Assembly: GCF_017901155.1 (NCBI RefSeq) | Contig: NZ_CP072800.1 | Coordinates: 1-64,000, forward strand | Length of the DNA stretch: 64,000 bases | Origin: Candidatus Thiothrix anitrata | GTDB lineage: Bacteria > Pseudomonadota > Gammaproteobacteria > Thiotrichales > Thiotrichaceae | Direction: 5' to 3' | Part shown: one piece after another, positions 23,827-57,835 of the stretch | Layout of the letters: each line of letters begins with the position of its first letter | How positions within the stretch are numbered: the stretch's first letter is position 1 | Made by a program: the position numbers and the translations under genes | Notes under the pieces: model-generated | The model's database searches: none | Told to the model about the DNA's origin: nothing | What the model saw: only the letters and a program-made list of their open reading frames with translations

Positions 23827-24015
23827 ATGAGTGCAACAGCCCATTCCACATCAAAAAAACTGCCACCTGTAAAACAACTTAACATATACAGTACGCATCT
23901 ACGCTGGAAACAAAAATACCCTTTGGCAACAGGCTTCACTCTTTGGGAACTAGCTAACTTATACCAAGACACAAGAGCTACTTACGTATCACTTCCGGTA
24001 TGGCAGCAAAACTGA
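23827..24015 (+). CDS. Short hypothetical protein
   Basis: 62 codons from ATG 23827 (weak GAGAGAAG upstream); ATG 23812 in the same frame gives 67. Basic N-terminus, no signal peptide, no recognised family. It precedes the R-M-S gene by 36 bp and may simply be leader sequence. Confidence 0.3.
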   Translation: MSATAHSTSKKLPPVKQLNIYSTHLRWKQKYPLATGFTLWELANLYQDTRATYVSLPVWQQN

Positions 24016-24051
24016 GCTGCATCCGCCCAAGCACAAGGATTTCTTACTTCA

Positions 24052-24549
24052 ATGATCACTAAGGATAACTTCCAAGCTGTCTTGACCACTTTAGGCTTTA
24101 CGCAAGATCGTGAATTATTCATTAAAAAATTCACTCATTGTGACCGTCAGCTTACCGTTGATTTCGCTAATGAAAAACTGATTTACCCTGAAAAAATCAA
24201 TGACCAACGCGGTATCATTATTAATGAAAGGCAAACTTGTAACTTTTCCGCCAACGAAAATTTTGTTGTCTTTGAATGTGTCTACCGCCTGCTAGAGAAA
24301 GGCTACAAACCTGAGTGCATCGAGCTTGAACCAAAATGGAAATTGGGACACGGTGCGAGTGGTGGGCGTGCAGATATTTTAGTCCGAGATGCGGAAGGTA
24401 AATCTCTACTAATTATAGAATGCAAGAATGCAGGCAGTGACTTTAATAAACACTGGAAAAAAACGCTGGAAGATGGCGACCAACTGTTTGGTTATGCCAG
24501 CAAGAACCGAGTGCCGCGTTCTTGTGCCTGTACGCTGCCGATTGGTTAG
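24052..24549 (+). pseudogene. R-M-S gene, N-terminal restriction-domain fragment (frameshifted)
   Basis: Start MITKDNFQAVLTTLGF with AAGGA upstream. The PD-(D/E)xK nuclease motif is visible as GGRADILVRDAEGKSLLIIECK (Asp ... Glu-x-Lys), typical of the HsdR-like N-domain found fused to type I methylases. The frame is lost at about 24508: the sequence reads LFGYASKNR here, and the expected continuation FLCLYAADWLDDEVVY is in the -1 frame. A single missing base explains it. Without repair the product is a 165-residue nuclease fragment with a spurious tail. Confidence 0.8.
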
Positions 24550-26840
24550 ATGATGAGGTGGTTTATGACAGCCATATAATCACGCTACGTGATAATGAAA
24601 AACTGCTAGAGGAACGTAAACACCAAAAGCCACTCAGTTACCAAGCCGCACAAGATCGAACCGAACGTTTCAAAGCATGGAAAGAAACCTATTTGCTGGA
24701 CTATGCCACGCAAGGCTTGTTTGAAGCGGATATTCCCGCGTATGAAATAGGCAAAAAGAATTTCAACATCAATGATCTAAAACACATTTCCAGCAAGGAT
24801 ACCCAAGGCAAACACCATGCGTTCGCCACTATTTTACGCAAATACAATGTATCGGGGCGTGAAAACGCGTTTGACAAACTCATCAACTTGTTTTTATGCA
24901 AGGTGGTAGATGAAACCAATAATGCCGAAGACTTGAAGTTTTATTGGAAAGGTGTCGCTTACGATTCACCGTTTGACCTACAAGACCGTTTACAAGTGTT
25001 GTATAAAGAAGGTATGAAGCAATTTCTCGGCGAGAAAATCACCTACATTGGCAACAAAGAAATTGATGAAGCATTCTGGGCGTACTTAGGTGACGAAGAT
25101 GCCACCAAGAATAAAATCAAGGAATACTTTAAAGAACTCAAATTTTTTACCAATAATGACTTCGCCTTTATTGAAGTTCACAACGAAGCATTATTTTACC
25201 AAAATGCAGCGGTATTGCGTGACATTGTGCGCTTGTTTCAGGACACCCGAATCAAAGGTGAAACCCGCAATCAGTTTCTCGGCGATATGTTCGAGATATT
25301 CCTTGATCAAGGCATTAAGCAAAGCGAGGGGCAATTCTTCACGCCCATGCCCATTACTCGTTTCATCATTGCCTGCTTGCCGTTAGAAAAAGTGATCCTT
25401 GACAACCAACATCCCCCCAAATGCCTAGACTATGCATGTGGGGCAGGACATTTCTTAAATGAATTGGCAACGCAAATGCAACCTTACGTTGACCAGCACC
25501 AAAAAGGCGACATTGGTGATTTTTACCGTGAGATTGAGGGAATTGAGAAAGAATACCGCCTGTCAAAGGTCGCCAAAGTATCCGCGTTTATGTATGGACA
25601 AGATAACATCAAAATCACCTATGCGGATGCATTGTCCAAAGCAGCCAATACACCGAAAAGCAGCTATTCAGTATTGGTAGCTAACCCGCCTTATAGCGTC
25701 AAAGGTTTCTTGGAAACCTTGAGCGAAGAGGAACGCGAAGGCTATTTATTAACGAACACCGTGCAAAATACGGCAAATAACAATTCTATCGAAACGTTTT
25801 TCATTGAACGTGCCAAGCAATTGCTGGCTGGAGATGGCGTAGCGGGGATTATTGTCCCATCTTCCATTTTGTCGAACGCGGATTCTACTTACATTGCTAC
25901 CCGTGAAATTCTGCTGAAGTATTTTGATATTATTTCCATGTGTGAGTTCGGTTCAGGGACGTTTGGCAAAACAGGCACAAATACGGTAACACTGTTTTTA
26001 CGACGCAAAGCGGCACAGCCGCAACCTGCCGATCATTACCGTAATCGGGTGAATCAGTGGTTCACTAAACCCGCTGACACCAATGAACAGCAACGTCAAG
26101 GCATTTTTCAGGATGAACATTTCATTCAAAAATATTGCCGTCATATCGGGGTTGAATTAAACGATTATAAAACGATATTAATGGGCGAAACCGAAGGTGA
26201 AGCGAATAAGGAGCTGATGCAAGTCGAGATGTTTACCGAATATCGCAAAGCCTTTGATAATCTTACCAGCACCGTACAGCGTAAGAAACAAAAGTCCTAT
26301 AAAGATATGGGTGAACACGATCAAGCGATTGAAATGCGTAAAAAACTGATGGCTTACATTCAGGGCATTGAAAAGGAAAAACTTTATTATTTTGTATTAG
26401 CCACGATCAACCCCAATAAAGTCGTGATTGTCAAAAGTCCTTCTGATACCAAAGAAGCCAAAAACTTTTTGGGGTATGAATGGAGCAATGCCAAAGGCAA
26501 CGAAGGCATCAAACTCATGACTGACGCAGCGGGCAAACACCTCACCCCGCTCTACGACGAAGACAATCCGCGCAACTCTGACAAAATCAACCACTACATC
26601 GAACGCGCCTTTTTAGGTGAATCGCTCGACAACATCCCCGACCACCTACAAGTATTCATCACCCCTGCCCGCTTGGTCGATATGCTCGACTTCACCCGCA
26701 CCGACTTCAACAAACAACTCAGCCTTTCCCCCAAGAAAGCTGTTGAGGTAGATACAAAATGGGAATTAATCAAACTTGACGATATATGTGAAATTAAAAA
26801 AGGCTCTTCGGTAATTCCCGTGGTGAGCCACAACATATAG
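24522..26840 (+). pseudogene. R-M-S gene, methylase part, truncated by ISL3 insertion
   Basis: Continuation of the gene at 24052 after the frameshift (a start at TTG 24522 is formal only). It carries an N6-adenine methylase: motif I DYACGAGHFLNEL, catalytic NPPY in VLVANPPYSVKGF, and QGIKQSEGQFFTPMPITRF as in HsdM. At the C-terminus it enters a specificity domain (WELIKLDDICEIKKG) and is then cut by the ISL3 element at 26802; the last residues SSVIPVVSHNI are IS-encoded. Joining 26801 to 28186 restores DICEIKKGTSITQAK in frame. Native product would be about 1260 residues: nuclease, methylase and specificity subunit in one chain. Confidence 0.85.
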
Positions 26841-28177
26841 TATTGAGGCTATCTCAACCATCGGCAGGTAGAAGCTAACAATGACCGCAACCTTCCAAAT
26901 TCCGCTCGACATTCCCGATGTTCACATACTATCAACCCGTTCTGGTGAAAAGGGTGAATTCATCCTAGAGGTGGAAAGCAGCCTGAACGCGACGACTTGC
27001 CGCCGTTGTGGGCGGGAGATCACGGAGTTTCATGGTTATGATCAACCGATCCTGCTGCGCCACCTGCCGGTATTTGGGCGTGATGTATGGATAGAAATCC
27101 GCCCCAAACGTTACCGTTGCCCTCACTGTGATGATCACCCGACCACAACTCAACGACTAAGCTGGCACGAACCACGTAGCCCGCACACCAAAGCGTTTGA
27201 TGCTTGGTTGGTGAGCATGTTGGGTAATTCCACGGTAAGCGATGTTAGCCGCCGTTGCCATGTCGGGCATGATGCGGTGGAAGGGGCGGTTAATCGTTGC
27301 ATCCGTGCCAAGGTGGACTGGGCGGATTACACCCAATTACGCACCTTGGGTATTGACGAGATAGCCCTGAAGAAAGGTCACAAGGATTTTGTCGCGATCA
27401 TCACCACCTTGGATAAGAACGACCAAGTTTGTGTACTGGCAATCCTACCGATCGTCTAAAAGAAACGGTGGTGACGTTTCTCAACAGCATTCCCGCGCAC
27501 CTGAAAGCCACGGTAAAGCGCGTTTGCTGCGATATGCATGAAGGTTACAGCAACGCCATCAAGGAAACGTTGCCCCATGCGCACATCGTGGTTGACCGTT
27601 TCCATGTGGCACAATACTACAACAAGGCGGTGGACAATTTGCGCAAAGAAACGCTGACAACACTCAAGAAAAACCTTCCAGAGGACATCTACCAACAGTA
27701 CTGTCAGGGGATGTTATGGCCGTTTCGTCACCATTTCTGGTCGCTGGACGCCGAACAACAAGCACAAGTCAGCCATTTCTTGGGCTATGCGCCAGAACTG
27801 AAACAAGCATGGCTGTTACGTCATGAACTGACGGCAACCTTCATGAAATACCAAACCAAAGCCGAAGCCAAACAACAATTGGATGCTTGGAAACAGAAAG
27901 TGACGGAATCAGGGCTAAGCTGTTTCGATAAATTCCTGACCTTGCTCGAAACTTGGCAAGACAGCATTACCAACTATTTTGAAGACCGGCATACGTCGGG
28001 TTTTGTCGAAGGCTTGAACAACAAGCTTAAAGTCATCAAACGACGCTGTTATGGCTTGTTGGATGTTAAACGATTTTTTCAGCAGATTCAGATTGATCTA
28101 CGCTTTGCGCGAGGACAATCTTTTGCATAAGGTCAAAACTACATGTTGTGGCTCACCACGGGAATTACCGAAGAGCC
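26802..28177 (+). mobile_element. ISL3-family insertion sequence, 1376 bp
   Basis: About 40-bp terminal inverted repeats starting GGCTCTTCGGTAATTCCCGT and running to ACAACATRTAGT, with a single mismatch. 8-bp target duplication TTAAAAAA at 26794-26801 and 28178-28185, as expected for ISL3. It is inserted in the specificity part of the R-M-S gene. Its transposase frame is broken once, so the copy may be immobile by itself. Confidence 0.93.
26881..28130 (+). pseudogene. ISL3 transposase, single frameshift
   Basis: First frame 26881-27459, second to 28130. N-terminal zinc finger CRRCGREITEFHGYDQ ... RYRCPHCDDH, then HTH, then the DDE domain (LGIDEIALKKGHKDFVAII; CDMHEGYSNAIKETLPHAHI; HTSGFVEGLNNKLKVIKRR). 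Together this is the usual 410-420 residue ISL3 transposase. The break is at about 27450, where CTACCGATCGT must be read CTA CCN GAT CGT to join ...VLAILP to DRLKETVV; one base is missing. Confidence 0.87.
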
Positions 28178-29226
28178 TTAAAAAAGGCACTTCAATTACT
28201 CAAGCAAAAACAATAATTGGAGATATACCTGTTGTTGCTGGAGGTATCAGTTATGCCTACAAACACAATCAATATAACCGAGAAAAAAACACTATAACAA
28301 TAAGTGCGTCAGGTGCAAATGCTGGCTTTATCAACTTTTGGCGAGAAAAAATATTTGCATCTGACTGTACAACTATTCGTGAAAAATCCAATATAGATAT
28401 AGTCTTTATATTTAACTTCTTAAAAACCATTCAAGCTGATATTTTCTTATTAGCAAGAGGCTCTGCTCAACCTCATGTTTACCCAGATGATATAAAGAAT
28501 ATAAAAATCCCTGTGCCGCCGATGGAGATACAACAAACTATCGTCCGTGAATGCGAAGCTGTTGATGCGGAATATGAGAAAGCTAAACAAGTTATAACAG
28601 ATGGGCAACAGACAATAAGCAGCACGATAGAGCAAGTTTACCGTGCTAGACACTCACAAGTTGAAATCGGCAAGTTAGCGATAGATGTCCAATACGGCAT
28701 TTCTCAAGCAATGAACACGACTAAAATCGGCTACAAGATTTTTCGTATGAATGAAATTTTCAACAATCGTATGACCGATACAGGTGATATGAAATACGTT
28801 GATATTTCAGCAGAAGAATTTCAGAAATACCGACTAAACAAAAGTGATATTTTATTCAACCGCACCAACAGCATTGAATGGGTTGGTAAAACAGGTATTT
28901 TTGAACTGGATGGTGATTACTGCTTTGCCTCTTATCTCATTCGTGTTGTGATTGATACCGCAAAAGCTGAACCGTATTTCGTTAATGCCATGATGAATTC
29001 AGCAACCTTCCAAACCGAAGCAAAAGCCAATGCTGCCCGTGCCATCAACCAAGCCAATATCAACGCCAGCAAAATGAAAGCTATCAAAATTCCTGTACCG
29101 CCGTTAGATGAGCAGCAGCGAATTGTTGCGGAAATTACGGTATTGGAGCAAAAGATTAAAGCGGCGCAGGCGGTGATGGATGGCGCAACAGCGCGGAAGG
29201 CGGCGATTGTGAAGAAACACCTATGA
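28178..29226 (+). pseudogene. R-M-S gene, specificity (HsdS) part, severed by ISL3
   Basis: Two target-recognition modules of the Methylase_S type: the first resumes KGTSITQAKTIIGDIPVVAG and ends IKIPVPPMEIQQTIVRECEA; the second runs from IGKLAIDVQYGISQAMNT to MKAIKIPVPPLDEQQRIVAE, each followed by a long coiled coil. The repeated IKIPVPP...QQ.IV motif marks the two conserved spacers. It has no start of its own after the insertion. Formal ORF starts lie inside the IS and read the wrong frame. Its stop overlaps the next gene (ATGA). Confidence 0.83.
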
Positions 29227-52588: not shown

Positions 52589-53395
52589 CTAACCCTTTTC
52601 AAGTTGTGCCAAACTCGCTTGGGCTTCGGCGATTAACTTTTCCATACGCATTTGTTCTTCAACGCGGGTTTCGAGATCGTATTGGGCTTGCAGGCGTTCC
52701 AGTTTGGTTTTGAGGAGTTTGTAGCGCTGGTTAGCCGCCATTTGGCAGGGTGTAGACGCTGTTGCGGGAGATTCCAGCGTTGCCAACAACGGCAAGGCGC
52801 GAATCAGCCGTGCTATCGGAATCATGTAACTGCGCAAATTGCCGCGCCGTTTCGCCACCAGCATCCCGGTAATGGCGTTGGCTTGCGTGTTCCAAACGGG
52901 TGCGCCGCTCAAACCATTGAGACTTTCGTCACTGACATTATCCACCTGTAACTGAACCCAACCTTCCGCCACCACGCCCGCACATTGTCCGGTAAACCAA
53001 CTGCCGCCGTGACGGTTAAAGCCGTAAGTGTAAAACGCTTGCCCATGATGCCCGCTATCCGGCAACACCTGACGTGGGGCGTAGGGCAAACTGACCATCC
53101 CTTCTACTTCCAACAGGCTCATGTCTTCCAAGGTGTGAATGTCGGGCTGGTCAACACTGGGGAAGGTGGTGTGTAACCGCAATGTTAGCGGCGGCACGTT
53201 GGGATTAAGCGGGAACAAAACCGTAAAAGCCGTACCGAGGGGAATCGGTAAACGTGCATCCTGCCCCAATACGCTGGCAATAACGTGGGTGCAAGTCAGG
53301 ACATGACGCGGGGAAACCGCAAACCCCGTGCCGATAACGCGGCTGCCATCGGCATTGAGAAACTGGGCAATGGCATGGTCGAAGGCTTCAGGCAT
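52589..53395 (-). CDS. Trypsin-like protease with C-terminal coiled-coil adaptor
   Basis: 268 residues, no signal peptide, so cytosolic. The S1-like triad is His in VLTCTHVIA, Asp in LEDMSLLEV and Ser in LNGLSGAPVWN. Residues about 215-268 form a coiled coil containing QYDLETRVEEQMRMEKLIAE, nearly the same peptide as in the N-terminus of the SIR2-like protein at 56242-57720. Intracellular trypsins of this kind occur in STAND-containing conflict systems, where the protease is released on activation. Overlaps the Trypco1 gene by 8 nt. Likely an effector of the cassette. Confidence 0.82.
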   Translation of the reverse strand: MPEAFDHAIAQFLNADGSRVIGTGFAVSPRHVLTCTHVIASVLGQDARLPIPLGTAFTVLFPLNPNVPPLTLRLHTTFPSVDQPDIHTLEDMSLLEVEGMVSLPYAPRQVLPDSGHHGQAFYTYGFNRHGGSWFTGQCAGVVAEGWVQLQVDNVSDESLNGLSGAPVWNTQANAITGMLVAKRRGNLRSYMIPIARLIRALPLLATLESPATASTPCQMAANQRYKLLKTKLERLQAQYDLETRVEEQMRMEKLIAEAQASLAQLEKG

Positions 53396-53702
53396 CGGTT
53401 TTCCATTTCAGGGTGACTTTGAAGGTGGCTTCACTATCGGCCGAAGCAAGGATCACGCCCGCTTTCGCGGAAAACTTAAAACCGACTTCCACTTGCGCTT
53501 CACTCGGTTGCAGCTTTTTCATCAAATTGGCGACAGCGGCAAGTGCGGGTTCGGTTTTATTGAGCGCGTCCTCAAATTTTTGCGCCGAGGTTTCCTTGCC
53601 GTCACTGTTGCTGATGCGCGATAGCTCGTTTTCGGTGGTTTCGGCTTCGACATAGAGGGTTTCGCCGTTGGCTAGGGGGTATTCGATGAGGTGTTTGGTC
53701 AT
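53388..53702 (-). CDS. Trypco1 (trypsin-co-occurring domain 1, CU044_2847 family) protein
   Basis: 104 residues: IEYPLANGETLYVEAET at the start, FEDALNKTEPALAAVANLMKKL, and the hallmark VEVGFKFSAKAGVILASADSEATFKVTLKW at the end (given here as its two parts, VEVGFKFSAKAGVIL and SADSEATFKVTLKW). The family is defined by its neighbourhood with trypsin-like proteases in conflict loci; its molecular role is not known. It overlaps the protease start by 8 nt, so the two should be made together. Confidence 0.82.
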   Translation of the reverse strand: MTKHLIEYPLANGETLYVEAETTENELSRISNSDGKETSAQKFEDALNKTEPALAAVANLMKKLQPSEAQVEVGFKFSAKAGVILASADSEATFKVTLKWKTDA

Positions 53703-53723: not shown

Positions 53724-54044
53724 TTAGGGGGTACTTTCGGCAAACAGAGTTTCCAAATCACGCTTTCCATGCAGTACCCGCACGATTTCCAGCACCTCAT
53801 CCGTATTCAGGTAAAAAACCAAATATGATGAGTATTTCTTCAATGGGAACAGGCGGATACCTTCAAGTGCAGGCAGACGATACTGACGTTTGACACCGAT
53901 TAATGGATTGCCTGAGAGCAAGGTAAACGCTTGACGTAACTCCATCACAAATTTGCTGGCAGCTTGCGGATTTGTTTCCAGTAAATAGGTGACAATTTCA
54001 TCAATGTCGAGTTCTGCCTGTGGGCGTATCGCCAGATTCAGCAT
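53724..54044 (-). CDS. RelE/ParE-family toxin
   Basis: 106 residues. LAIRPQAELDIDEIVTYLLE, NPLIGVKRQYRLPALEGIRLFPLKKY and VLEIVRVLHGKRDLETLF are typical of ParE toxins, which poison gyrase, rather than ribosome-dependent RelE. Overlaps the antitoxin gene by 7 nt. It sits inside the conflict cassette on the same strand, 21 bp before the Trypco1 gene. Confidence 0.85.
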   Translation of the reverse strand: MLNLAIRPQAELDIDEIVTYLLETNPQAASKFVMELRQAFTLLSGNPLIGVKRQYRLPALEGIRLFPLKKYSSYLVFYLNTDEVLEIVRVLHGKRDLETLFAESTP

Positions 54045-54295
54045 GATTGCTGTTCACCGTGGCTGTTAGCTTTGGCTTCAATCCGTTGCCAGAAAGCATC
54101 ATCAACAGGTTTGGCTGCACCTGATTGCAAACCTTGCAACAGTGCCGCTTCCAACTGCTCTTCCAGATAACGCAGTTTGTCGGCACGGATTAGGGCGCGA
54201 ATGTAATCGCTGGGATTGCTGAAATCAGATCGGGAAGCGCGTTCCTGCACGAAGAGCCTGAGACTGTCCGGCAGGGAGATATTCATGGTTGCCAT
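54038..54295 (-). CDS. ParD-family antitoxin
   Basis: 85 residues. The ribbon-helix-helix MATMNISLPDSLRLFVQERA-type N-terminus binds DNA; the acidic helical C-terminus (YLEEQLEAALLQGLQ) wraps the toxin. Pairs with the ParE gene downstream and probably represses its own promoter, which would lie in or near the MITE at 54386-54539. Confidence 0.86.
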   Translation of the reverse strand: MATMNISLPDSLRLFVQERASRSDFSNPSDYIRALIRADKLRYLEEQLEAALLQGLQSGAAKPVDDAFWQRIEAKANSHGEQQSC

Positions 54296-54673
54296 ACGTT
54301 ATCCTCAACAAAACGACTTTCTTGAATTCTCTAGCGTTTGGCAAAGATTGTCAAATTCATTTGCGCAAGGCAAGCTGCAAATTATGGTTCTTCGGGAATT
54401 CTCGTGGCATTGTATAAAAAGCAGACATATCCGTAGAATTCGACAGAGAGTTTCCAGTGCTAACCGTATAATATATGGATTATTTATTGGCAACCTTACT
54501 GATGAGAAATATTCTCATCACGGGAATTCCCAAAGAGCCCAAATTATTTGACAAGTAATCATGCAACAGTTTTTCGGAAAAATCACGATTTTCAAATCAA
54601 TGAATTACGACTATAAAGTGCTGGCAACCTTACTCCTGATTACTCACAATACTATAAGCGTAATAAAAAACCA
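54296..54673. other. AT-rich intergenic region between parD and the STAND gene
   Basis: 378 bp, no gene. Holds the MITE (54386-54539). The rest is AT-rich like the 3' half of the STAND gene. A 12-bp direct repeat GGCAACCTTACT occurs at 54489 and 54623, possibly by chance. Confidence 0.5.
54386..54539. mobile_element. 154-bp ISL3-type MITE
   Basis: Left end GGTTCTTCGGGAATTCTCGT, right end (complement) GGCTCTTTGGGAATTCCCGT: imperfect inverted repeats, each only about 3 mismatches from the terminal repeat of the ISL3 element at 26802-28177. 8-bp target duplication CAAATTAT at 54378-54385 and 54540-54547. No coding capacity. It contains an inner hairpin GATGAGAA-ATA-TTCTCATC (54501-54519). A non-autonomous element that an ISL3 transposase could move. 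Confidence 0.82.
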
Positions 54674-56245
54674 TCACCTAAAAAGATTGATTATTATCAC
54701 TACATCCACTAAAGACAACACAAAAGCTACAAACAGTAAAGTCATGTACACCCGATTCCACACTGACATATTTTTCACATAGCCCACCAATGATAAAGTT
54801 TCTCCTAACACCTTATCAGTGATTGAGTTGATATTTCTTTTGTTTTTACGAAAAACCAAAGTCAATTTTTCTTTTAAATAAGAATTGAGATTTTCAGCAT
54901 AAAAAAAACACTTAGCAGCTTGATCAGATAATCGCCCATACTTAACCAGAAAATTATTATATGCTTCTTTTAAAAAACCATGACGCTTATCAAAAACAAT
55001 ATAACTCGATACAATATGACTATCAATTTTAGACGCAACCTCAACATATTCGGGAGAAATTCGCCATCTACATTGCCAGTTTCTTATTAAACGAGAATAA
55101 ATGTCATGATGCAATTGATACCAATCAAAACCATCTATATTCGACTTCCTCAATACTTTAAGCTTGTCCAGCTTATCTAGCACAAAGGAAATATTTTTTT
55201 CAGGCATCCTTGTTACTTTTGACAAGCCTTCTGCCGTATACGCAATCTTAAAACCTGAAAGGCCAACAAGAAAGTCAAATGCTCTATACGCAATATATTT
55301 CTCACGCCCTTGAAAATAACCAAACTTGTGCTCTAAATATCTTTCCAAAATACCTTCAGCAGCACCAGCATCAAAATAATCACTAACCTTTACAATATAA
55401 GAATTATTCTTACAAGCACCACTCCATAGATAAGAACAAACTATTTGCAAATAGGACATTTCTATTTTAGAAAAACAAGATAGATCAGGGGATGCCTCAG
55501 ATATAAGTAAAACAGGACTAATCAAAAGATCATTAAGTATAACATCCACCAAACCATCTTCATAATAAAAACCAATTAAAGACATTGGATTAACTACTGC
55601 ATCATAAGCCTGCTTTTTACTTAGAGTATCTAGGCGATAAAAGTTCTCAAACAACAGCGTCGGCAAGCGCGGTTTAAAAGCATTGAGTTCCAGCGCGAAG
55701 TCTTCGCGCATCGACAGCACCAGACTCACGGGCAATTGCGGATTAGTGATGATTGCTGTCAATTGCTCAATGAACGGCTGGAAATTGGCACTCGCCCGTT
55801 GGTAACGGAAAAATTCTTCAAATTGATCAAGGATCAGTACCAACGGATGACGCACAAACAACCCGCAGAACTCCAGCAATTCCTCCAGCGTTTCCCCCGC
55901 CTCATCCGCTGCACCTTCGGGCAACTTACCGCTGCTGTGCAAAGCTTGTAGCACCGCTGCCCGTACACTGCTAACTGGCTCGCTCACCCAGTCGATGTGG
56001 TACACCACCTCCAAATTTTCCCCGGTCGGCGATTTCAAACGCGGGATCACCGCCGCCTGCAACAGCGAACTTTTGCCCACCCCGCTCGCCGCAAACAACA
56101 ACGTCAAGCGATTGGTCAACACCTTGTCGATCAGGACTTCCGCATCCGCATCGCGCCCAAAGAACTTATCCTGCTCATCCTCATGATAAGGCCGTAGACC
56201 GGGATAAGGATCAGAAGAGAGGAGGTTTCTTTCTTCGTTGGTCAT
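54674..56245 (-). CDS. nSTAND1-type ATPase with C-terminal membrane helix
   Basis: 523 residues. Start DPYPGLRPYHEDEQDKFFGR is the nSTAND1 signature; Walker A FAASGVGKSS (Lys58), Walker B LVLILDQFEEFF (Asp140), sensor VSLVLSMREDF. After residue about 200 come winged-helix and helical regions without recognisable repeats, ending in one transmembrane helix (VYMTLLFVAFVLSLVDVVIIINLF). DNA for residues 1-200 is G/C-balanced like the chromosome, whereas the rest is strongly AT-rich: a chimeric gene. Predicted nucleotide-dependent switch anchored at the inner membrane. ATGA overlap with the SIR2-like gene upstream. Confidence 0.82.
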   Translation of the reverse strand: MTNEERNLLSSDPYPGLRPYHEDEQDKFFGRDADAEVLIDKVLTNRLTLLFAASGVGKSSLLQAAVIPRLKSPTGENLEVVYHIDWVSEPVSSVRAAVLQALHSSGKLPEGAADEAGETLEELLEFCGLFVRHPLVLILDQFEEFFRYQRASANFQPFIEQLTAIITNPQLPVSLVLSMREDFALELNAFKPRLPTLLFENFYRLDTLSKKQAYDAVVNPMSLIGFYYEDGLVDVILNDLLISPVLLISEASPDLSCFSKIEMSYLQIVCSYLWSGACKNNSYIVKVSDYFDAGAAEGILERYLEHKFGYFQGREKYIAYRAFDFLVGLSGFKIAYTAEGLSKVTRMPEKNISFVLDKLDKLKVLRKSNIDGFDWYQLHHDIYSRLIRNWQCRWRISPEYVEVASKIDSHIVSSYIVFDKRHGFLKEAYNNFLVKYGRLSDQAAKCFFYAENLNSYLKEKLTLVFRKNKRNINSITDKVLGETLSLVGYVKNMSVWNRVYMTLLFVAFVLSLVDVVIIINLFR

Positions 56246-57720
56246 ACTGTTACCCCCTCCAAATAAGCATCCAACTCACGGAAATCAAAATGGTATTGTT
56301 TGACATTGCGGTAATCCCAAAACGCATTTTCCAGTAGATTGGGTTTTTCGCCGCCCTGCGGCGCATTGCCAACCACATAGCACGGCTCTTGCGCATTGCG
56401 ACGCTTTTCCAGCAAAGCACTAACCAATAAGCGGTCTTCCCACTTTTTTGGACGATAGCCAATGAATAAAAAGCCTCGGTTGCGGAATTGCCGCGCCAGA
56501 TAATCGGGGATAATACGGTCAGCGTAACGTGCAAAACTGAAGTAATTGCTTTCCGAAAGCGTCATAGCATCACGACGCAATAGGCTTTCAGCCGCATCAT
56601 GGCAATCGCTGATTTCACACGTCCCACGAATTTTGTAGATGATCGAATAGCCACTTTCCAGCAAACGTAATCGTGAAAGTGCTTCTCCCGGGTAAACCTG
56701 TGACGGTTTGCTGTGATCGGAATAGCTCACCACCACATGCCCAATGTCGTAATCTTCACTACGATTGATAATGGATGCCAGTTCCACAAAGCGTTTGCCC
56801 GCCGCTTGGAAGGTACTTTCCAGCAAGTTATCGTAACCCGATGAAATCAGGATTAGCGGTACATTGATCTTGGCGAGTGCCTGATACAAATTGATGACAC
56901 GCGCTGCATCCGGCAATGACTCGCGTAAGTTATCGAGTAACGAAGCCACCCCTAAGTCTGAGCGTAATTGGTAATATTCGGCAATCGAGGACAACGTGCC
57001 ATCAAAATCCGTATAACCAATTTGTTTGGCGAGTTTCCCAACCAGTGTGCGTTCTTCATGCGGCTCGTCGCAGTAAGCTGAAACCACATCTGAGCCAAGA
57101 AACAACACTACTTCACCTTTTTGTACGCGCTTTGCCAAGGCTTCGATATTGACCCCATGCCCACTGTTCGTGTCTGGTTTCATCACCGCATACCAGTCCA
57201 TAAAATCGCTGGCATCCAGTTCGCCCTCCAAAAAAGCTTCAGTTTGTTCTAACATCGCACTGTATTCGGGGCTACCGTCTGGCTGCTTCAAGGTTTCGGC
57301 GAGTTCCTTGAAAATGGGCTTGATGTCTTTCATCCGAAACGCCAACCGCTTAACTACATCCACTGCTTTGGTTTGATTGGCATGAAGGTTTTCGAGCGCG
57401 GCAACTTCTTGTTCGGCGATGGGATTACCGGGGTAGATGTATTGGATTTGTTGCCAACAGGCCAGTGCTTTCAAGTACGCGCCATTACGTTTGAGTTGAG
57501 CAGCCTCAGTAATCAAACTGCTTTGTTGCAGCGTCAGCGATTCAGTTTCGACCCGATACACTGCCGCTTGTGTATCAGCAATACCTTTCTCAATGCGCAT
57601 TTGTTCTTCCACGCGCGTTTCAAGATCGTATTGCTGATGCAGTCGAGCAAGCTTTTCCGCTAACATTACTTGGCGGGTTTGAAGGTCTCGCAATTTTTGT
57701 TGGTGCAGATCATCGGGCAT
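56242..57720 (-). CDS. SIR2-like domain protein with N-terminal coiled-coil adaptor
   Basis: 492 residues from ATG 57720 (AAAGG 7 nt upstream); a 20-codon extension to 57780 is unlikely. N-terminal coiled coil (about 10-55) with QYDLETRVEEQMRIEKGIAD, then a TPR-like helical pair (LKRNGAYLKALACWQQIQYI), then a SIR2_2-type Rossmann domain from about residue 208 (VVLFLGSDVVSAY). The usual TTNYD motif reads SSGYDNLLE, and the usual K-x-HG reads YKIRGT, so catalytic Asn and His both appear replaced. It may bind NAD or ADP-ribose rather than cleave it. First gene of the cassette. Confidence 0.78.
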   Translation of the reverse strand: MPDDLHQQKLRDLQTRQVMLAEKLARLHQQYDLETRVEEQMRIEKGIADTQAAVYRVETESLTLQQSSLITEAAQLKRNGAYLKALACWQQIQYIYPGNPIAEQEVAALENLHANQTKAVDVVKRLAFRMKDIKPIFKELAETLKQPDGSPEYSAMLEQTEAFLEGELDASDFMDWYAVMKPDTNSGHGVNIEALAKRVQKGEVVLFLGSDVVSAYCDEPHEERTLVGKLAKQIGYTDFDGTLSSIAEYYQLRSDLGVASLLDNLRESLPDAARVINLYQALAKINVPLILISSGYDNLLESTFQAAGKRFVELASIINRSEDYDIGHVVVSYSDHSKPSQVYPGEALSRLRLLESGYSIIYKIRGTCEISDCHDAAESLLRRDAMTLSESNYFSFARYADRIIPDYLARQFRNRGFLFIGYRPKKWEDRLLVSALLEKRRNAQEPCYVVGNAPQGGEKPNLLENAFWDYRNVKQYHFDFRELDAYLEGVTV

Positions 57721-57835
57721 GGGCAAGCCTTTGGGGTCGGAATGTGCATTTCTTTTATACCAATTCGGGCAGGGCTGCAAACCTTTCTTAGATGATTTTC
57801 AGGACTACGTTATGCCCGCACACCAAGGCATCCCC

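Follow-up and report, generated by a model that had tools for sequence, protein, structure and literature searches.

Genes and features of the locus

The window, that is, the whole stretch of DNA that was analysed, comprises the first 64,000 nucleotides of contig NZ_CP072800.1 of Candidatus Thiothrix anitrata. It carries an nSTAND1 gene whose start overlaps an upstream SIR2-like gene by ATGA. On the downstream side, the nSTAND1 gene is followed in order by AT-rich intergenic DNA, a parD/parE-type pair, a Trypco1 gene, a trypsin-like gene, and nadC, the last of which has been assigned by reading. An earlier note on this DNA had the gene begin at 54548, which is 126 bases past it; the stop codon occupies 54674–54676, and the true span is 54674–56245, or 523 codons. 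For the SIR2-like gene, the start of the longest open reading frame is at 57780, versus 57720 from the alignment with the orthologous locus L115. The genes of the locus are the following:

52589–53395, minus strand: trypsin-like protein with a shared C-terminal coil (Pfam Trypsin_2, E 1.6e-5, 26.1 bits, just under the cutoff of 27.6)
53388–53702, minus strand: Trypco1 gene (Pfam Trypco1, E 8.6e-23)
53724–54044, minus strand: parE-like toxin gene (Pfam ParE_toxin, E 1.9e-15)
54038–54295, minus strand: parD-like antitoxin gene (weak Pfam ParD match, E 0.061, under the curated cutoff; GC3 0.52)
54296–54673, no strand: AT-rich intergenic DNA, very probably the end of a foreign block (378 bases; changepoint near 54277)
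54674–56245, minus strand: nSTAND1 gene, very probably chimeric, 523 aa (Pfam nSTAND1 over residues 13–391, E 7.6e-45)
56242–57720, minus strand: SIR2-like partner gene (Pfam SIR2_2, E 3.4e-12; start set by comparison with L115)

In the SIR2-like protein, as judged by eye, SSGYDN and KIRG stand at the sites of the expected TxNxD and HG. The catalytic Asn and His of the SIR2 NADases are absent in the window protein and in three relatives, and this SIR2-like family may be inactive or have a variant site. A stretch of ~45 residues, QYDLETRVEEQMR, is common to the N-terminus of the SIR2-like protein, the C-terminus of the trypsin-like protein, and the C-termini of TIR proteins. Its copies are encoded at 52601–52726 (trypsin), 57547–57687 (SIR2), and G000:C1:3448798–3448908 (L154, TIR-like), and a further one is found in a TIR protein in L115. 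Small helical stretches that are repeated on several effectors have been described as effector-associated domains, or EADs (PMC7159879, PMC8195603). The stretch in the window proteins matched no Pfam family, EADs included, and has the look of an effector-associated adaptor that is not yet listed.

Among 63 family genomes, a clear DNA relative of the ParDE-type pair (53724–54295) occurs in G006 only (73% identity), on a different contig from the STAND locus of that genome. The possibility that the pair belongs to the foreign block has been ruled out by its composition, and its best DNA relative lies elsewhere in G006.

Breaks in composition and identity

A sharp base-composition break inside the STAND gene had been reported in the earlier note, and it is confirmed by the GC3 profile and by a changepoint fit. 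GC3 is 0.63 for residues 1–205 and 0.26 for residues 206–523, alongside 0.50 for the SIR2 gene and 0.60 for the trypsin gene; per 20 codons, it lies between 0.40 and 0.80 up to codon 200 and between 0.10 and 0.50 from there on. The best two-changepoint fit delimits an AT-rich block at 54277–55654 (edge ranges 54261–54472 and 55592–55692) with a GC of 0.337 versus 0.506 outside it and a log-likelihood gain of 57.7. The AT-richness continues, as had been noted, through the intergenic region (54296–54673) and stops at about the parD gene, which is itself of ordinary composition. The most AT-rich 1 kb in the 64-kb window also falls within this block. The composition break is thus correct on all these measures, far beyond chance. 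The GC3 step of the window gene (−0.39) is the largest in the 82 loci for which both halves were measured, the next being −0.15, and this comparison rules out ordinary within-gene GC variation. No full-length homologue that shares this step was found among these 82 loci; one would have pointed to ancient co-evolution of the two parts. Further AT-rich stretches of the window are found at 24001–26000 (GC 0.42) and 28001–29000 (GC 0.375).

The gene has been compared with four relatives. Three are orthologues that adjoin the nadC side of the same locus, L115 (G005), L116 (G012, T. caldifontis), and L118 (G014), and the fourth, L117, is a close relative in G002. Maximum chi-square analysis of codon alignments places the breakpoint at base 55628, in codon 206, in all four comparisons, with chi-square values of 146–202 versus a shuffle maximum of 24 and values of 4–6 for control pairs of relatives. 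DNA identity is 80–83% before this base and 43–46% after it, protein identity to close relatives drops from 86–93% in the head to 34–36% in the second half, and the blastn matches to all four relatives stop at 55629. Set against the two relatives nearest to it in the alignment, the window gene has 50–56 points more identity in the head than in the second half; other family members, compared in 253 pairs, show a mean fall of 6.2 and a maximum of 19.8 points. The terminal branch leading to the window gene is 0.028 long in the tree of the head but 2.58 in that of the second half, a tree that is poorly resolved. Because the flanking genes are 78–81% DNA-identical to the genomes of the same relatives (blastn), which matches the value for the head, the head is taken as native and the remainder as the newcomer. 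The GC3 step and the identity step are two independent signals that fall at the same place, and their coincidence supports the exchange by recombination that the earlier note had suspected, as does the separate comparison of the halves it had proposed, in which residues 1–200 are highly identical to relatives and the remainder is divergent. The gene can accordingly be divided as follows:

55631–56245, minus strand: head, residues 1–205, NTPase core, very probably native (86–93% aa identity to close Thiothrix relatives; GC3 0.63)
55628–55655, minus strand: breakpoint zone, conserved LFENFYRL stretch (identity break at 55628)
55073–55630, minus strand: switch half, residues 206–391, helical and winged-helix part of nSTAND1, very probably foreign (34–36% identity to close relatives; GC3 0.24; 29 of 33 conserved columns kept)
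54677–55072, minus strand: tail, residues 392–523 (no match in any search; model pLDDT mostly ~50 or lower)

The two halves of the switch and the tail

The protein is a member of the nSTAND1 family (PF20703) by a Pfam match of 154.6 bits versus a cutoff of 27.1 over residues 13–391. It has the Walker A and Walker B motifs of a STAND NTPase (GVGKSS and LILDQFEEFF, both conserved across 24 sequences), and helical and winged-helix domains come after the NTPase core. Apart from a few loops, the AlphaFold model has good confidence as far as about residue 396. Foldseek matches to this model include ORC/Cdc6, CED-4, Apaf-1, and plant NLRs, with low TM-scores of ~0.3, and no relatives with a solved structure were found by sequence. 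The motifs and the predicted membrane segment are located as follows:

56066–56089, minus strand: Walker A stretch AASGVGKS, residues 53–60 (G55, G57, K58, and S60 invariant in 24 sequences)
55808–55837, minus strand: Walker B stretch LILDQFEEFF, residues 137–146 (invariant columns in 24 sequences)
55103–55114, minus strand: LHHD motif, residues 378–381 (H380 invariant, D381 at least 90% conserved)
54689–54745, minus strand: predicted C-terminal membrane helix, residues 501–519 (Kyte-Doolittle mean 2.8 over 19 residues)

In the model, the NTPase core closes with a strand of residues 202–205 and the next helix begins at residue 210, so that the join sits at a domain boundary. The earlier placement of the break right after the core NTPase is therefore borne out by a breakpoint in codon 206. 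The further claim that a sensor half had been exchanged holds in part: everything 3' of codon 206 has very probably been replaced, but residues 206–391 are the second half of the conserved nSTAND1 switch and not a sensor. A changing trigger, to which the note linked the exchange, would be a hypothetical driver of it. This second half keeps 29 of the 33 positions that are conserved in 23 relatives, and its LHHD motif is probably the equivalent of the NLR MHD motif. The join between the last NTPase strand and the helical domain thus yields a hybrid nucleotide switch.

C-terminal sensor repeats are common in the STAND class, although the NTPase module is its defining feature. In the window protein such repeats are absent, with no repeat or family match after residue 391 in Pfam. 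In the L115 orthologue, the switch region is followed by ~1,000 residues with strong HEAT matches (HEAT_2, E 1.2e-85). In the window gene, ~130 residues of no recognised type, ending in the predicted membrane helix, replace the HEAT tail, and blastx finds no trace of a remnant HEAT tail in the intergenic DNA (54296–54673). Taken together, these observations make it very probable that the gene is a chimera in which a vertically inherited Thiothrix nSTAND1 head has been joined to a divergent nSTAND1 second half from an AT-rich donor, with loss of the HEAT tail.

On the nadC side, the same locus in G005, G012, and G014 carries STAND genes with HEAT tails (by Pfam for G005 and G014), and the G014 gene is split into two frames. 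The interval between the STAND gene and nadC holds a PIN-type gene and a TIR protein in G005, a PIN-type toxin-antitoxin pair with Trypco1 and trypsin in G014, a different gene in G012, and ParDE with Trypco1 and trypsin in the window; these genes have been named by reading, except where Pfam was run. Synteny with G014 picks up again at 53733, just before Trypco1 (blastn). Some of the orthologous STAND genes look broken. The HEAT tail is split in G014 (L118, 9561–13605), and the orthologue in G004 (L122) has an in-frame TGA and fragments. In T. caldifontis (L116, 10929–13965), the SIR2 frame is fused to an N-terminal ParA-like part (KGGVGR) and preceded by a TIR-like gene, and the STAND frame has an in-frame TAG.

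The chimera could be real but dead, the loss of the HEAT tail having left a drifting, sensorless relic. This reading concerns function and can be compatible with the chimeric origin; we place it a little below an even chance. The protein has no recognisable sensor, its tail is modelled poorly and lacks relatives, and related loci decay, as seen in the stop codons in G012 and G004, the fragments in the latter, and the split tail in G014. Against a relic, the frame of 523 codons is intact, its start overlaps the SIR2 gene, and 29 of 33 switch positions are retained together with the LHHD motif.

Origin of the second half

Returning to the chimeric origin of the gene, searches with the tail half through 63 genomes of the family, 369 of the class, and 398 of the phylum, and through plasmids, phages, and viral contigs, yielded no donor or close relative. 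The second half is 31–40% identical to the family members compared, that is, equally distant from them. Because nothing closer emerged from the searches, the most likely donor is a carrier of this nSTAND1 family that is AT-rich and has so far escaped sampling. In the proposed event, the Thiothrix nSTAND1 gene that overlaps the SIR2-like gene would have kept its NTPase core (residues 1–205) by vertical descent, while all DNA 3' of codon 206 would have been replaced from a divergent AT-rich member of the family. The crossover most likely ran through the LFENFYRL-coding stretch, where donor and recipient would still have been alike: 26 bp of this stretch (55629–55654) are 92% identical to other relatives, which would fit recombination through short homology. 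The left crossover end has no visible homology. This, together with the failure of the searches to yield a donor, the restriction of the junction to the one genome of the species at hand, and the poor resolution of the second-half tree, counts against the chimeric origin. The original HEAT-repeat tail would have been removed in the same event or later. A 106-bp intergenic element is present in two copies of 78% identity, 54553–54657 and G000:C1:3360526–3360631, both in AT-rich surroundings.

Evolution of the second half in its present place, through rapid AT-biased mutation and without exchange, is very improbable. Such a course would agree with its alignment to the same family and with its weak placement among the Thiothrix sequences in the tree, but it does not account for a boundary at one base in four comparisons, a ~90-fold difference in terminal branch length, the continuation of the AT-rich DNA beyond the gene into intergenic sequence, and a tail that differs completely. 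An assembly chimera or contamination is very improbable. The junction is known from the one genome assembly of the species that was available, with an estimated contamination of 3.27%; this assembly is a single 3.55-Mb contig, and a random misjoin would not yield an intact frame joined at the homologous position between two nSTAND1 halves. Diversity-generating retroelements (DGRs) are described as diversifying nSTAND1 C-termini elsewhere among multicellular bacteria (PMC10907252). That a DGR or other targeted hypermutation changed the tail of the window gene has next to no likelihood, since the altered region spans 318 codons plus intergenic DNA with a shifted composition, no reverse transcriptase was noticed among the open reading frames read at 48–64 kb, and the genome holds no second copy as a template apart from the 106-bp intergenic and 26-bp matches.

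Comparison with known systems and significance

The chimera can be set against its own orthologues and against known systems. L115, L116, and L118 resemble the window gene in the SIR2-like partner, the NTPase head, and the nadC-side flank, but, in contrast to the window gene, their GC3 is uniform, their second half is native, and a HEAT-repeat tail comes after it. AVAST type 5 (Avs5) is a SIR2-STAND antiphage protein, a single polypeptide with its own C-terminal sensor (PMC12931631). Both systems pair a SIR2-like effector with a STAND switch, but in Avs5 the SIR2 domain is fused to the STAND N-terminus, whereas the window SIR2 is encoded by a separate overlapping gene and lacks the canonical Asn and His. 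None of the PADLOC Avs models matched the window system. A further hallmark of Avs5 is the hydrolysis of NAD+ on a phage trigger. The nSTAND1 conflict systems with effector-associated domains and Trypco1/trypsin (PMC7159879, PMC8195603, PMC10907252) have nSTAND1, trypsin, Trypco1, TIR, and a repeated small helical stretch in common with the window; in those systems a DGR acts on the C-terminal sensor, while in the window the change is a recombination inside the switch.

It is possible, though less likely than not, that the gene encodes a working STAND defence switch, with an NTPase core from one lineage, a helical/winged-helix half from another (~35% alike), and a short membrane-anchored tail to which a repeat sensor has given way. 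By analogy with STAND biology, the ADP-held switch would open and oligomerise on a trigger and activate the coupled SIR2-like partner. The trypsin and TIR proteins with the same coil may join the activated switch, and the new tail, through its predicted helix, would anchor it at the membrane. The chances that the hybrid still senses something are about even.

Variation of the C-terminal part is known from bacterial STAND proteins, which are related to the NLR immune receptors. In the modular exchange of STAND and NLR proteins the head is kept and the C-terminal part is changed, usually by a swap of the sensor after the winged helix. Unlike this usual swap, the join in the window gene lies inside the switch, after the NTPase core; its breakpoint is known to the base, and sister species carry the identified parental head at this very locus. 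If the gene does encode a working switch, defence switches would have, in the conserved stretch that follows their NTPase core, a natural swap point at which the control and sensing parts are changed at once. A splice point that is tolerated there, with the core on one side and the control domains on the other, would be useful for learning how STAND switches are held off; if the hybrid does not work, it would provide a clean example of the decay of STAND loci.
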